The position numbers and the translations under genes are program-made. DNA of 64,000 nucleotides from Onchidella celtica (lineage: Eukaryota; Mollusca; Gastropoda; Systellommatophora; Onchidiidae), in NCBI GenBank assembly GCA_963931925.1, contig OZ007579.1, positions 39,283,457 to 39,347,456 on the forward strand, read 5' to 3'. Within the stretch, counting starts at the first letter, position 1; each line of letters begins with the position of its first letter. The notes beneath the pieces are model-generated. The model was given only the letters and a program-made list of their open reading frames with translations, was not told the origin of the DNA and made no database searches. Shown here piece after piece: positions 7,720 to 52,331 of the stretch.

Positions 7720-10538
7720 ATTGCCCTGCAGGTAGGATAGCGGCGAACGTGGATGGCAATCATAGTAGCTCCACTCAATGTTCGCCTAGTAAGTTTCAGC
7801 ATGCGACCGCGTGTGTTACATCGGACAACGGAGGCGGACAGTATTCTAAGTGTCCCAGTTGTGAGAAGTTATTATCTTCCGGTGTTTTACCTTGTGGGAG
7901 AAAGATCCCCGTTATAAATTCATGTCATACAGGAGGTGGTCTTAGGGTTTATCCGGGGTTTGTTGGGGACGAACCGGTCTCGGTTTTACGAGATACAGGA
8001 TCTACCGTTGTGGGAGTGCATAGGGACTGCATTCAGGGTTCACAGCTTACAGGTGAGACTGTCCCATGCATACAATTTTCAGGGGCCATTGAGAAATTAC
8101 CATTGGCAAAGATAGTGATAGATACGCCTTTCCTTAGCGGGGAAGTCGAAGCAGTCGTTGGTTGTTTTCCAGGCGCCCAGCTCATCATTGGTAATGTATC
8201 TCGGGTAGTTTCCCCTTCCGAGGAGAATGTGCAGGCATGGTCACAATCAAAAGGTATTGACTTTTGTTCCGCAGTCGAGACACGTCGACAGGTAGGTGAT
8301 AGGAATAAGATTAGACCTTTGGCAACGCCAGCGGTCAACCTGGATATCACACCAGAGCGCTTGGCGAGATTGCAAAAGGAGGATCCATCATTGAGTCCAT
8401 GTTTTGGGGAGGCACGAACGGAGAAAACGAGGAAATATAAGAACGGGTCGTCTTCCTTTGTTATCCAGGCGGGCATTCTGTTCCGTAAGTATGTTACGGT
8501 GGCTTCCGTTTTAAAGCAGGTCGTTGTGCCAGCGTTGCTAATCGCAACAGTATTGCATTTGGCACATGATGTCCCATTAGCGGGTCATATGGGTATAGCT
8601 AGAACCAAAGAAAGGGTTCTCAAGAATTTTTACTGGCCATCCATCCACAGAGATGTACGAGTGTATTGTAAGAAGTGCAGTGCGTGCCAAAAGACGACGC
8701 ATAAGGGTCGTACACCCCAGGCTCCTCTTCAGAATATAGCAGAAGAAGCTTCTAGTATCGCTTCAAAAAGAGCAAAAGACTATAAAGATAGAGGATCCAA
8801 ACTGAGAATTTTTAAGCCGGGAGACAAGGTCCTATTGTTATTACCTACGGACCATAATAAGTTATTGATGACATGGAAGGGTCCTTATGTTATTGAGCGA
8901 GTTGTTTCGAAGGTAGATTACGCTATCCACATTGAGGGATCAAGTAAGGTTTTCCATGTTAATATGCTACAGAGATTTTATGAGAGACCAGAGTATCTGT
9001 GTGCACAGACGAAACCAGAGGAGAGTGTCTTCTCTATTGCTTGTACGGGGGTCGTAGACCAGTTAGACAGTGACGTAAGCGACACCGAGGCGCAGGAAGA
9101 GGTACAAATTCAATTGCCGGAGTTAACTCCGACACAAGATTACAGGGACGTAAAAGTTAACCCTGACCTTACGAGTTCAATGAGTACGGAACTTAAGACC
9201 CTGTTAGCGTCATTCCCGGATGTTATTACAGATTTGCCGGGTCGCACTACGGTGATCCAGCACCAAATAAAGTTGACTTTGGATAAGCCAGTATCTCTTA
9301 GACCTTATCCGTTGCCTTTTTCTTCCAGAGAGAGAGTTAGAAAAGAAGTTGAGTCAATGTTGAAGTTAGATGTGATAGAACCATCAACATCGCCGTATTC
9401 ATCACCCATCGTCCTCGTGAAAAAACTTGATGGATCGGTGCGGTTCTGTATTGACTTTCGAAAATTGAACACTATTACGTTAAGCGATAGGGAGCCTATT
9501 CCATTTCAGGAGGAACTAATAGCTTCATTGGCCGGGTCCACGTGGTTTTCCAAGATAGATTTAACGAAAGGTTATTGGGAAATCCCTCTTGCTGAGGAGT
9601 CTAAACAATACACGGCTTTCCAAACGCCCATTGGATTATTCCAATTTAAGGTCATGCCATTTGGGTTGGTAAACGCGCCAGCGACGTTTGCACGATTAAT
9701 GAGACTGGTATTAAAGGACATACCTAATGTCGTGTCATTCTTTGACGATATAGCGTGTCATACGTCGACATGATCTGATCATATTCACACACTAACGGTA
9801 ATTTTTAAACGATTACGTCATTTTGGGTTAACTGCTAAACCCGCAAAGATGGATTTGGCATGTCCAGAGATAGTATTCTTAGGACATATCGTGGGTAGAG
9901 GTGTTCAGAGACCTGAAGTAACAAAAATTGACAAATTAGTAGGGTTGCAAATCCCTAAAACAAAGAAACAAGTCAGAAGCTTAGTGGGAATTTTGAATTA
10001 TTACAGAAAGTTCATTCCAAATTTTTCCTCCTTGTCATCTTCTCTTACTGACCTTACTAAGAAGGGACAACCCGATAAGGTCCAGTGGACGTCTGAATGT
10101 CAGACAGCATTTGATAATTTGGTGACAGCATTATCATCGTCACCCATTCTGATATTACCCGATTTTCGATCTAATTTTATCCTCAGAACGGATGCGTCGG
10201 ACTCTGGTGTCGGCGCTTGTCTTCTACAGGAGAAGAACGAATGTTTCCATCCTGTATGTTATGTCAGTAGGAAGTTATTGCAGAGAGAAAGAAAGTATTC
10301 TGTGATAGAGCGGGAGTGTCTTGCCATTGTGTGGTCCGTCCAGAAATTAGGACGTTATCTCATGGGACGAGAATTCTGTATCCAGACGGACCACAAGCCA
10401 CTGACATTTTTGTCGAAGGATCGTTCGTCCAGCCCACGCTTGTCTAGATGGGCATTGGCGTTACAGCCGTATACCTTCGTTATTCAACCAATTCCAGGAA
10501 CCAGCAATCATATCGCCGACTAACTTAGTCGAGCCTAG
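7641..10538 (+). pseudogene. pol: Element B pol: zinc knuckle, protease, integrase remnant, RT, RNase H
   Basis: The frame carries the second half of one CCHC knuckle (HFSRDC), a complete knuckle (CWNCGRADHISVNC, CX2CX4HX4C), an aspartic protease (RDTGST, Asp codon 7992) and the integrase zinc-binding HHCC region (about 8550-8700). Where element A has the DDE core, this copy jumps from APLQ (about 8720-8732) to the region before the GPY/F module (TWKGPY, about 8872). RT follows with an FDD motif (9741-9749). TGA at 9771-9773 and TAA at 10521-10523 interrupt the same frame, which otherwise runs to TAG at 10536-10538. RNase H (RTDASDSGVG) starts near 10185. The element cannot make a working integrase. 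Confidence 0.88.
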
Positions 10539-10890
10539 GGGAAGAGTTCAGGAGCTTATACATCGGAGGACAGGAACATTGACAGGATCTGTGTGAACGA
10601 GTGTAGACTTTAAAATATTGACATTATAAATATTATATGAAGAATGGTTGATAGATTGATTGGTTTTGATTCTGTATTAGGTATTGTGTTTGGTTGGCTA
10701 TTGATGATGTGATACATATATGCATAGGCAGGGCATGTTGATCCCCGTATCTTCCCCTGATTTCGGTATTATATATGCTAGGGGCATTGGTAGGTCATTT
10801 TTATGTAGGTATTGCTCACGCTCACTCGTTGACAGTCATCTTGATGCGATTTGAAATTAATTGCATTAATTTTTTTGGGGTGGGGGATGA
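10539..10890 (+). other. Element B 3' noncoding region and polypurine tract
   Basis: These bases lie between the pol end and the LTR and show no coding signal. The polypurine tract is GGGGTGGGGGATGA at 10877-10890, directly next to the TGTCAC start of the LTR. Confidence 0.75.
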
Positions 10891-23130: not shown

Positions 23131-23549
23131 AGGTAGAATGCGCATATCCGCCATCTTTGAAGTAAAGGCCCACGCGTCACCATGGCGATTGTGGCATTGA
23201 TTTTGATTCGTTATCGGATTTGCACTAGGAGGACTTGAGTCGTCTCGAACCAATCGGAGGCGAGCTAAAAGTGGTTTGCTACAATAAACAACTACACGTG
23301 TGTACATGCACATGGGAGAGGTTCGGTCAATTCTTTTACTTCCTTTCCCAACACGGATGGTAGGGAATCTGACCAGCTTGGATCCATCACTTCCACCCCT
23401 GACATAACGGTCAACTGCAATGCAACTAGCAGGAATTTTAACGGCTTAGACATATCTCAAGTTACACTCATCAGCTGATCCACCGGCCATCTTGTGTGTC
23501 GGAAGAACAAAACAAAAACACTCTGTGTGACATCATCCGCATTCTACCT
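23131..23549 (-). mobile_element. Non-autonomous THAP-carrying element (ISL2EU-like family)
   Basis: The TIRs are AGGTAGAATGCGCAT at the left and its near complement ATCCGCATTCTACCT at the right. AT flanks both ends (23129-23130 and 23550-23551). On the minus strand lies a remnant of a THAP-type zinc-finger exon (about 23445-23340: GTTGCATTGCAGTTGAC, then CAGATTCCCTACCATCCGTG). After KEVKELTE the sequence jumps to the subterminal region, the same junction as in the copy at 29.2 kb. At 419 bp it is an internal-deletion derivative. Confidence 0.72.
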
Positions 23550-29162: not shown

Positions 29163-29492
29163 TGACAGAGTTTTTGTTTTGTACTTCCGCCAAACAAGAT
29201 GGCCGGTGGATCAGCTGATGAGTGTAACTTTGAGATGTGTCTAAGCAGTTAAAATGCCTGCTGGTTGCATTGCAGTTGACTGTTGTGACAGGGGTGGAAA
29301 AGATGTATCCAAACTGGTCCGATTCCCCACCATCCGTGTAAACAAGAGAAAGGAAGTGAAAGAATTGACCGAACGTCTCCCATGTGCAAATACACACGTG
29401 TCATTGTTTACAGTAGTGAACTCGCCGCCGATTGGTTCGCGACGCTTAAGTGGGTCCTGACAGACAAGATCATGGATATGCGCATTCTACCT
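29163..29492 (+). mobile_element. Non-autonomous THAP-carrying element, left end unclear
   Basis: The right end ATGCGCATTCTACCT (29478-29492) is followed by AT. The interior matches the 23131 element in reverse orientation (AAGATGGCCGGTGGATCAGC and the THAP start). The left TIR is not visible. Upstream 28930-29162 holds two further diverged copies of the subterminal region (ACAGTAAACA...), so the insertion is nested or rearranged. Confidence 0.6.
29254..29372 (+). pseudogene. Truncated THAP-type zinc-finger exon
   Basis: MPAGCIAVDCCDRGGKDVSK leads to RFPTIRVNKRKEVKELTER, matching the first half of the THAP domain in the 51.5-kb copy (CIVVGC..., RFPSVRV). After ELTER the frame runs into subterminal element sequence, so the Trp-containing half and the final Cys pair are missing. 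A product could not form the zinc site. THAP domains are C2CH zinc fingers that bind DNA, often transposon ends. Confidence 0.6.
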
Positions 29493-39892: not shown

Positions 39893-39940
39893 TTATAAAA
39901 TAAAAATTAAAAAATGTGGCTGGAGTAATTCGGTGTGGTG

Positions 39941-40305
39941 CACAGACTAATAAATTAACCAGACTGGAAACACGAGTTTCGGGCTGTGTCGTTTTTTACG
40001 GAATTTCCCGAGCGACGACTGTATAACCAACATGGCCGCCGCTCGGGAAATTCCGATTCTAGTTCAATCTGCCATAGAAATTTCTTTTCATTTGTCAAGA
40101 TTGGTCGTACATGTATGAATTTCTTGGTGCGGAACCAAACTTCCGCGTTCAGTAGGCGCGTCAAAATGGTGTCATTCAAAATTGTAGCTATGCTGAAGCG
40201 TCGGTCGCTACCTTAATCCTAATATGGCGGATGGTTCATGACCTTTCGCTGTTTTGTGACGTCACACAGTGGGATCATCCAATCTGGTTAATTTATTAGT
40301 CTGTG
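39941..40305 (+). repeat. hAT-like MITE, CACAGACTAATAA family, copy 1
   Basis: The element is 365 bp with TIRs of about 25 bp (CACAGACTAATAAATTAACC and complement). The flanking octamers GTGTGGTG and GTATGGTG match at 7 of 8. The interior has two near-complementary TTTCCCGAGC / GCTCGGGAAA arms around ACCAACATGGCCGCC and a TGTGACGTCACA palindrome. It has no coding capacity. Confidence 0.85.
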
Positions 40306-40570
40306 GTATGGTGCAAATTTGGCTAAATTTTTGCTCAAGGCTACAGCCTGAGTGACAGTCTCAAAAAATACAACATTAATTTTCTCAAGTGTCAACTAAG
40401 CTAACCTAATCGCTTTTGTAGCGGCCTGTCGTGTTTATTATTCAAATTTCAGGCAATTGTTCAAAACAAGTTATAAAAATGTTCAATACTACAATGTTCT
40501 CTGCTAGTGCTCCCTTTGACAATCTCACCACACGGAGAGACTGTCTGACAAGCGTTCGGTTGGTGTGTAC

Positions 40571-40935
40571 CACAGACTAATAAATTAACCAGACTGGATG
40601 ATCCCATTGTGTGACGTCACAAAACAGCGAAAGGTCATGAACCATCCGCCATATTAGGTTTACGGTAACGACCGACGCTTCAGCATAGCTACCATTTTGA
40701 ATGACACCATTTTGACGCGCATACTGAACGCGGAAGTTTGGTTCCGCACCAAGAAATTAATACATGTACAACCAATCTTGACAAATGAAAAGAAACTTCT
40801 ATGGCAGATAGAACTGGAATCGAAATTTCCCGAGCGGCGGCCATGTTGGTTATACAGTCGTCGCTCGGGAAATTCCGTAAAAAACGGCACAGCCCGAAGC
40901 TCGTGTTTCTAGTCTGGTTAATTTATTAGTCTGTG
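40571..40935 (-). repeat. hAT-like MITE, CACAGACTAATAA family, copy 2
   Basis: The same 365-bp element in opposite orientation, 265 bp from copy 1. The target duplication GTGTGTAC is perfect (40563-40570 and 40936-40943). Confidence 0.9.
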
Positions 40936-50657: not shown

Positions 50658-50808
50658 CACAGACTAATAAATTAACCAGACTGGAAACACGAGCTTCGGG
50701 GTGTGTCGTTTTTTACGGAATTTCCCGAGTGGCGACTATAGGTAGAATGCGCATATTTCACTTTACTTCCGGGTCCGCCATGTTGTTTGGCTAGACTTGT
50801 CCACAACA

Positions 50809-51045
50809 ATGGAGGAATGCAGTGTAGAAGACGCTAAAGTAAGCCATTTGGACCCAGTCAGTCGGGCCAGGTACGAAGAAAAAATCGCAAAAGTAAAAGG
50901 ACTCGATCCTTATAGCATCCCTGACACCAGCTGGACCCAGAAAGACTTTCCGGCGGTCACATTTCCAGACATTGTGGCCTATCTAGTGTGCACCAGTCTC
51001 AACGTATCACCTACAATAATGGGGGAATGCCCCCAACCTATCTGT
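50809..51045 (+). pseudogene. N-terminal fragment of a YqaJ/SWIM-type transposon protein
   Basis: The frame opens at MEECSVEDAKVSHLDPVSRA, with RYEEKIAKVKGLDPYSIPDT and FPAVTFPDIVAYLV. This resembles the beginning of uncharacterised invertebrate proteins that go on to SWIM zinc-finger and YqaJ recombinase domains; that recognition is from general familiarity, not a search. After about residue 65 (YLVCTS) the expected sequence is lost, either by internal deletion or at an intron. Neither the SWIM finger nor the nuclease is present. The start lies about 70 bp inside the left TIR, so promoter sequence would be in the terminus. Confidence 0.45.
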
Positions 51046-51489
51046 GGCAGCTCAGTTTTGCCTTGTCATTTTATCATAAAATTTTATCAAATTAAATTAC
51101 ACTGTATCATTAAGCAACAGTAATCTGAAAGGACAACATGTTGAACTTGTTTAAAATGGATGATATCTGGCCTACTAGAGCTAGGATCTTGATCAGTGGA
51201 GTTCAGAAGGAATTTACTGACTCTGCTTACCTCCAGAAAACACACTAACAAGTAGGATGTTCTTAATGATTCAACTTGAAAAAAATTCACAACTAACCCA
51301 GTTCCAAAACCTACTACCGAACTGCGTGGTCCTAACCGTTAATTCTGTCAGACACCTACCTTCACTCGGATATAGTATATTGCTCTGGAGCCCTAGGCTA
51401 GATCTATCTGGCCTGCAATCTCGTGCAATACATGTAGTCTATGGAGATCTAGATCTAGCTCTCCTGCGACGAAAATAACAGGCTTAGTT

Positions 51490-51740
51490 TTATCACATTA
51501 TTCAATTAAAATGATGATTACCTGAGACGAAGTACTCGGCACAAACAAAATGGTGCGGCTTCAGAGTTTTGGAGTCAATTCCCTTTCTGTTCACTGCCTT
51601 CAACCACAGACGACGTCGACGCTCCGTTAATTCACTTCCTTTCCCTCCTTAACACGGACGCTAGGGAATCTGAACATCTTACAGCCACCCTTTCCACCCT
51701 TGTTGCTGCAACCAACAACGATGCATTTCGCTATCATTGT
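51490..51740 (-). pseudogene. THAP-type zinc-finger exon with one frame break
   Basis: The minus strand reads MIAKCIVVGCSNKGG, then MFRFPSVRVKEGKEVN. After a one-base shift near 51650 it continues ELTERRRRLWLKAVNRKG and HHFVCAEYFVSG. This gives the THAP order: Cys-x4-Cys, Phe-Pro, Trp, and a final Cys pair in which Tyr replaces the usual His (C-A-E-Y). The coding sequence ends at TCAG|GTAATC, a plausible splice donor, so this would be a first exon. THAP domains serve as end-binding modules in several transposases. Confidence 0.7.
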
Positions 51741-52331
51741 AACTGTTTTAATATCCAAGTGGAATTCGTCACGCCTCGCACTCACTTGAATCGACTCCAC
51801 TGGCCAAACAACATGGCGGAAAACCAAAACGAAACCACTCTGTGACGTCATGCGCATTCTACCTATATAACCAACATGGCCGCCGCTCGGGACATTCCGA
51901 TTCTAGTTCTATCTGCAGTAGAAATTTCTTTTTATTTGTCAAGATTGGTTGTACATGTATGAATTTCTTGGTGCGGAACCAAACTTCCGCGTTCAGTAGG
52001 CGCGTCAAAATGGTGCCATTCAAAATGGTAGTTATGCTGAAGCGTCGGTCGCTGCCGTAAACCTAGAATGGCGGATGGTTCATGACCTTTCGCTGTTTTG
52101 TGACGTCACACAATGGGATCATCCATCCTGGGTATTTTATTATTCTCTGGTGCTGTAAGCCTTGCTTGTGGTGTTCAGCAAAGACAGATATGGCTGTATA
52201 TGATTGGACGTGCGCAGTCTAGAGGCTTTCGTGGTAACAGAAAGTTCTTTTTATAGGTGAGACAATGTAATAAGTGTTATAACCTGTGTGGAATAAATAG
52301 CACTGAAAGTTGTGTGTGCTTTTCAGAGAGT

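Follow-up and report, generated by a model that had tools for sequence, protein, structure and literature searches.

A two-gene-start element in the Onchidella celtica genome as a probable deletion derivative of an ISL2EU-type transposon

INTRODUCTION

A 1,125-bp unit on contig OZ007579.1 of Onchidella celtica raises the question of how a single pair of terminal inverted repeats (TIRs) came to enclose two gene starts and, in this copy, no transposase core. The unit lies in the window, by which we mean the whole stretch of 64,000 nucleotides that was analyzed (GCA_963931925.1, forward-strand positions 39,283,457 to 39,347,456). A first-pass annotation, made from the sequence alone, had read it as a deleted ISL2EU-like element in which two convergent genes start near opposite TIRs, with an autonomous partner expected elsewhere in the genome. 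We conclude, with a probability of about 0.92, that it derives by internal deletion from an ISL2EU-type two-gene transposon, is non-autonomous, was amplified in trans and carries its gene starts as passengers.

RESULTS

Structure of the element and its gene remnants

The element is bounded by exact TIRs and flanked by AT on both sides, and the flanks extend the perfect inverted repeat to 18 bp (50737-50754 and 51850-51867). Its features, in window positions, are as follows.

50740-51864, no strand: non-autonomous element of 1,125 bp, a type-C deletion derivative, defined by its TIR pair and equal to the two joined ends of the full-length copy on contig C9
50740-50754, plus: left TIR, AGGTAGAATGCGCAT, exact, 15 bp
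51850-51864, minus: right TIR, AGGTAGAATGCGCAT, exact, 15 bp
50738-50739, no strand: left AT target-site duplication, from the AT flanks of 32 of 34 copies and from empty sites
51865-51866, no strand: right AT target-site duplication, on the same evidence
50774-50794, no strand: left arm of an inner subterminal inverted repeat, pairing with 51800-51820 (21 bp, 95%)
51800-51820, no strand: right arm of the same repeat, pairing with 50774-50794 (21 bp, 95%)
50809-50995, plus: beginning of the SWIM-YqaJ gene, some 62 codons of exon 1, cut by the deletion, 98.4% identical to C9
50994-50995, no strand: deletion junction with a 2-bp CA microhomology, about 8.5 kb lost relative to C9
50996-51519, no strand: probably what is left of the transposase gene's first intron, adjoining the THAP exon in C9 (rc 9807 onward)
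51520-51521, minus: splice donor GT (CAG|GTAATC) by sequence, 3' of the THAP exon
51522-51737, minus: THAP exon, with a frameshifting 4-bp deletion near 51633 and a tyrosine for the C2CH histidine

The minus-strand THAP exon proposed earlier is real and its donor is present, but its frame is broken in this copy. Because the 4-bp deletion shifts the frame, only the second half of the domain is recognized by PF05485 (E=0.0031, below the cut-off), and the residue that we take to be the zinc-binding histidine of the C2CH motif is a tyrosine. The same exon exceeds the Pfam cut-off in two other copies, the full-length one on C9 (E=8.4e-11) and the type-A copy L012 (E=2.3e-10). On the plus strand, the open reading frame that starts at 50809 (MEECSVEDAK...) had no Pfam match of its own in the profile search of the window element, and the exon gave a single weak match to solved structures (E=1.5). 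The same sequence, however, opens the YqaJ-bearing gene of the C9 copy, which bears out the proposal that the plus strand holds the first codons, put at about 65, of a YqaJ/SWIM-like gene. What needed correction was the view of it as an intact exon start: the fragment ends at the deletion junction 50994-50995, within exon 1, and not at a splice site. In C9, exon 1 runs on past this break as TSFYTAKQF-AAG and then reads GTAGGT, a donor by sequence.

A full-length copy carries both genes

A full-length copy of 9,702 bp is found on contig C9 (39429493-39439194), with AT on both sides, an exact left TIR and a right TIR with one mismatch. The locus was recognized where matches to the plus exon and to the YqaJ family (at least 150 each) adjoin, 3.3 kb apart on the same strand. 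Element positions 1-256 align to C9 rc 1007-1262 at 98.4% identity (four mismatches in 256, no gaps), and positions 255-1125 to C9 rc 9807-10708 at 92.7%, gaps counted (35 mismatches in 871, plus 31 gap positions). The window element is the two ends of this copy joined.

The nuclease strand of C9 carries, in order, exon 1, the stretch AFKSLSAYNQTYNGWV, which we take for a further exon of the gene, a SWIM-like stretch (HCTCMAGLAEA*THVASLLF, stop codon included), YqaJ (PF09588, E=1.9e-22) and, below the cut-off, the beginning of a PHD finger (PF00628, E=8.6e-4); this second gene also matches PF01771 over the cut-off. The transposase strand carries THAP (PF05485, E as above), HTH_Tnp_4 (PF13613, E=7.5e-14) and DDE_Tnp_4 (PF13359, E=8.7e-51). 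Between HTH and DDE lies a reverse-transcriptase-like frame on the opposite strand (PF00078, E=8.3e-4, below the cut-off), and the frame of the nuclease gene changes just before YqaJ. In our reading both genes of the C9 copy are broken, because each of the matching regions is a single open frame in one or both of two sister loci, L017 and L018.

The genome search for full-length copies with these TIRs thus ended at a copy that encloses a transposase gene and a YqaJ gene facing each other, and the family profile search led from the plus gene to YqaJ and from the minus gene to THAP, HTH and DDE in C9. Neither TIRs around unrelated sequence nor a plus fragment belonging to a non-YqaJ family was observed. 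The prediction drawn from one deleted copy therefore held in that the parent is present in the genome with its two genes facing each other; the expected autonomous partner was found as a 9.7-kb copy with both genes that is itself broken.

Related two-gene loci in the genome

Among the matches listed, no second copy of the C9 DDE exon exceeds 78% identity over most of its length; the next relatives are at C8:36262589 (78%) and C15:6948534 (66%), and fragments occur on C11 (85% over 66 residues) and elsewhere. The YqaJ exon has relatives at C13:12353085-12353838 (74-88%) and C11:18779237-18780061 (78-83%), the remaining ones listed being at 49% or less. The decayed C11 locus (THAP at 18773931 and DDE at 18776783, both plus; YqaJ at 18779237 and exon 1 at 18784738, both minus) has the gene order and orientation of C9. 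Further long copies were located at C1:17840309-17846512, C2:1915132-1920443, C15:6735596-6740220 and C8:36255665-36263230.

The sister loci L017 (on C15) and L018 (on C9, at 2.24 Mb) both hold the SWIM-like motif, YqaJ and a PHD finger in one open frame. The SWIM-like motif (PF04434) scores E=0.19 and 0.46, respectively, below the cut-off, and the PHD finger (PF00628) E=1.6e-5 in each, over the cut-off. L017 also has HTH and DDE in one open frame, and the 3' ends of its nuclease and transposase frames, counted from stop to stop, overlap by 2 bp.

More generally, at least 100 YqaJ loci have a DDE match within 6 kb (150 YqaJ and 150 DDE matches listed), while 50 of the 150 have none among the DDE matches listed. 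In all 100 cases the nearest listed DDE match is on the strand opposite to YqaJ, with 88 convergent and 12 divergent arrangements; the divergent loci form a subgroup, e.g., at C7:51521435. Another ISL2EU-type family, exemplified by L046 (C1:4926098), comprises at least 39 loci with a 316-amino-acid YqaJ frame and near-equal scores, many of them with a 523-amino-acid DDE frame close by. Since the loci are near-equal in YqaJ score and many have the DDE frame, this family was probably active recently. L021:357-1403 is a further YqaJ-type locus; the frame upstream carries a SAP-like domain that scores below the cut-off (PF02037, E=1.3e-4), and the second protein of such loci may vary in its DNA-binding parts. 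With so many YqaJ and DDE loci side by side, many of them stop-free in the matched stretch, and with short copies sharing ends, this genome is well suited to asking whether transposition requires the YqaJ protein.

Copy number and short relatives

The TIR pair with AT on both sides stands as first described. The 15-mer TIR occurs 3,265 times (1649+1616) in the 1.14-Gb host genome (43 contigs), while the reversed 15-mer used as a control gave 0+0 matches across the same genome. A DNA search with the whole element, in which 40 of 766 candidates were scored, returned at least 45 matching pieces. At least 37 of these span 1,100 or more of the 1,125 positions, and besides the window copy itself (100%) these long pieces are 90-96% identical to the window element. 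The first 100 listed 15-mer matches form 32 pairs within 12 kb and leave 36 matches unpaired. The spans of the pairs are 327-433 bp in 21 cases (11 of exactly 350), 714-761 bp in two, 1,062-1,139 bp in eight and 1,510 bp in one. The window itself holds two short relatives.

23131-23549, no strand: related short element of 419 bp sharing the TIR, its right copy having one mismatch
29165-29492, no strand: related copy of the 350-bp short element (96% to L005), with one exact TIR

These two show 47% and 48% identity, respectively, in the first half of the THAP exon, and the second has a single recognizable TIR. At L092, an apparent second element of the same TIR group directly abuts from position 1759, with ATAGGTAGAACGCG following the end of L092.

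For the comparisons below, copies were counted if both TIRs (at most four mismatches) lay 950-1,320 bp apart, which left out, e.g., L059, L070, L076 and L094. After removal of three double extractions (L014, L060 and L061), 37 distinct aligned rows gave 34 copies, seven of which had been fetched by the plus-exon search, two of these being also among the whole-element matches.

Target site

AT flanks both ends in 32 of the 34 distinct copies, in agreement with the duplication expected of ISL2EU; the wider flank is mostly T|AT|A and so departs from the A|AT|T of that group. TAT is present at the left in 29 copies, ATA at the right in 30, and both in 26. The window element is inserted in a repeat of about 370 bp, of which an inverted pair occurs at 39938-40307 and 40569-40935, and two uninterrupted paralogues of the insertion site lie in the window.

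39985-40065, plus: uninterrupted paralogue of the insertion site (empty site)
40810-40895, minus: second uninterrupted paralogue of the insertion site

L049, elsewhere in the genome, interrupts this repeat at a position 2 bp from that of the window element; the repeat around L057 recurs in L097, and L060 interrupts a short element resembling L005. When these four insertions (window, L049, L057 and L060) are set against their empty sites, one duplicated AT fits and the length of the site is unchanged. Both empty paralogues read GT at the AT of the window insertion; L057 and its empty site differ by one base beside the site and by a gap further left, and for L060 the discrepancy lies a few bases outward on the right. 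We read the TIR as starting with AGG because the empty sites favor AT as the duplication. The alternative, a TA duplication with a TIR starting GG, was discarded, as it predicts empty sites 2 bp longer than those observed (compared by eye).

Passengers, regulators or captured exons

The THAP-coding remnant could be more than a passenger. KP and other internally deleted Drosophila P elements keep the THAP-coding end and the TIRs, and in a KP-type repressor a selected THAP-only product represses transposition; by analogy, a THAP peptide from the short copies could compete for the TIRs. Type A, the most frequent of three junction types (below), would suit such a role, with the THAP ATG kept in 21 of 23 copies, the donor GT in 18 of 23, and a domain over the Pfam cut-off in L012, the sole type-A copy tested. 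However, the THAP exon shows a substitution pattern that looks neutral: of 77 unique substitutions across the 34 copies, 58 are non-synonymous, against 74.5% expected (p=1.0), and no selection on the remnant was detectable by this test. Type B, moreover, was amplified despite lacking the ATG in eight of nine copies (ATC instead), and both type-C copies read, the window element and L067, carry the 4-bp frameshift. A repressor role looks unlikely, because the THAP remnant shows a neutral pattern and one amplified lineage is without the start codon. That a TIR pair captured two host gene starts, as in Pack-type elements, agrees with what the window copy shows alone, namely two gene starts and no transposase core. 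It is ruled out for practical purposes by the C9 and C11 loci: both exons start the transposon's own genes in C9, unless that copy was itself put together by a later joining, and C11 has them in the same order.

We therefore return to the reading of the element as a deletion derivative with passenger gene starts. The short copies look like passengers moved by other elements, judging from their sequences. In the plus exon, 24 of 37 unique substitutions are non-synonymous (0.649, against 74.3% expected; p=0.19; 34 copies), a proportion compatible with neutrality. This exon has 37 substitutions in 61 codons versus 77 in 74 THAP codons, and it is gapped in 0 of 34 copies versus six of 34 for the THAP exon, counts that ignore insertions relative to the reference. 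The left end is thus less changed than the right, both against C9 and among the copies; it may be under some constraint, or the parent may have been a mosaic whose two ends came from different sources.

Origin of the deletion

Three junction types were distinguished among the 34 copies: A (23 copies), B (nine) and C (two, including the window element). In C9 rc coordinates, the last left-hand position is 1275 in A, 1260 in B and 1262 in C, and the first right-hand position is 9823, 9815 and 9807, respectively; the value of 9807 is taken from the alignment of the window element with C9, the 9819 (overlap -8) given by the script reflecting a later 2-bp difference. Microhomologies measure 3 bp in A and 2 bp in B and in C. 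All three junctions thus cluster within 16-17 bp on each side of a deletion of about 8.5 kb, and deletion alone converts none of the types into another. Genome-wide, with up to three mismatches allowed, the type-A pattern gave 72 matches (reversed control, one) and the type-C pattern three. The type-B pattern matched 53 times: the 12 matches with no more than one mismatch belong to type B, and the 41 with three mismatches represent other right sides, C9 included. In a tree of the 34 copies, the two C copies group together (support 99), as do eight of the nine B copies (94); the ninth, L014, joins the C copies (83), and the deeper nodes are weakly supported.

On the preferred reading, and starting from the observed structure, parentage, AT duplication and gene order of the element, the course of events would be as follows. 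The parent had two tail-to-tail genes, a THAP-HTH-DDE_Tnp_4 transposase read from the right TIR side and, from the left TIR side, a SWIM-YqaJ nuclease-like protein with a PHD-finger-like start, gene models whose splicing and expression are predicted from sequence. As the comparison with the C9 copy shows, about 8.5 kb between nuclease exon 1 and the region past the THAP exon was lost and the ends were joined at a 2-bp microhomology, most likely by abortive gap repair after excision. Transposase from full-length relatives would then have bound the ends in trans via its THAP domain, and the short element would have been excised, reinserted mostly at T|AT|A with duplication of AT, and amplified, retaining its gene starts as passengers. 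Against this reading stand the broken state of the C9 parent, with no functional partner among the copies read, the departure of the target flank and first TIR bases from those usual for ISL2EU, the smaller amount of change at the left end, and, against random abortive gap repair in particular, the three different but tightly clustered junctions.

These junctions invite the explanation that types A, B and C arose by independent deletions guided at both sites, by DNA structure or by nuclease cutting. None of the three is derivable from another by deletion alone, a founder with both side sequences within 30 bp had 0 matches in the genome by exact pattern, and a G5-N4-C5 hairpin lies immediately to the right of the right-hand breakpoints. 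Yet the right side is covered by only one full-length copy, the types may share an ancestry after a first deletion, the placement of L014 separates junction type from ancestry, and the founder may have been lost or have diverged past the exact pattern. In other longer copies the left-hand break appears to lie at different places, and the clustering therefore concerns this amplified group. We regard recurrent guided deletion as a serious but doubtful possibility, and loss of a short-lived founder as at least as likely as recurrent cutting. If the junctions were independent, the formation of non-autonomous copies would be guided and not accidental. More specifically, two fixed places 8.5 kb apart could be where the transposon, or its YqaJ nuclease, cuts or makes repair stall, with near-identical two-ended derivatives forming repeatedly as a result. 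This idea appears improbable; if true, it would give the transposon a built-in route to its own non-autonomous copies. In a lesser variant, the SWIM-YqaJ-PHD partner may read chromatin to guide or repair transposition.

DISCUSSION

Comparison with known systems

As in KP, an internal deletion in the window element has kept the THAP-coding end and the TIRs; the transposase class is a different one, and the THAP remnant here is without sign of selection. Spy transposons insert in AAATTT without a target duplication, whereas AT is duplicated here, and PIF/Harbinger elements differ in their 3-bp TWA duplication and Myb/SANT second protein, in place of which we find AT and YqaJ.

The closest likeness is to ISL2EU, a member of the PHIS (PIF/Harbinger, ISL2EU, Spy) superfamily described with a DDE, HTH and THAP transposase and a YqaJ protein (PMC4482050, PMC9179366, as far as consulted). 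The C9 copy has DDE, HTH and THAP on one strand, the joining of the exons being predicted, together with a second gene with YqaJ, an AT duplication and an animal host. In the parts of PMC4482050 consulted, AT duplication and the target A|AT|T are given as a shared characteristic of ISL2EU, whereas the flank here is mostly T|AT|A, a difference in a trait that we do not take as defining the group; likewise, the TIR starts with AGG here versus usually, though not universally, GG, and the C9 copy, with reverse-transcriptase-like sequence inside, measures 9.7 kb versus an average of about 4.84 kb. We place the family as ISL2EU-type by its gene content and AT duplication, and not by a tree with named ISL2EU transposases.

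The second gene of C9 shares PF09588 and PF01771 with YqaJ and viral alkaline exonuclease nucleases; here these domains stand in a transposon gene beside SWIM-like and PHD-like parts. This SWIM-like motif and PHD-like start also set the second protein apart from that of ISL2EU as described: neither SWIM nor PHD occurs in the main text of PMC4482050, where, in the parts consulted, the function of the additional open reading frames of these transposons was called unknown in 2015. Likewise, none of the listed titles and abstract openings on YqaJ with SWIM, THAP, PHD or DDE announces a SWIM-YqaJ-PHD architecture in a transposon. In scallop, YqaJ and THAP are listed among contracted gene families (PMC10225492, in the part consulted). 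The element in the window belongs to a new ISL2EU-type family, whose unusual details are the clustering of its deletion junctions and its SWIM-YqaJ-PHD protein.
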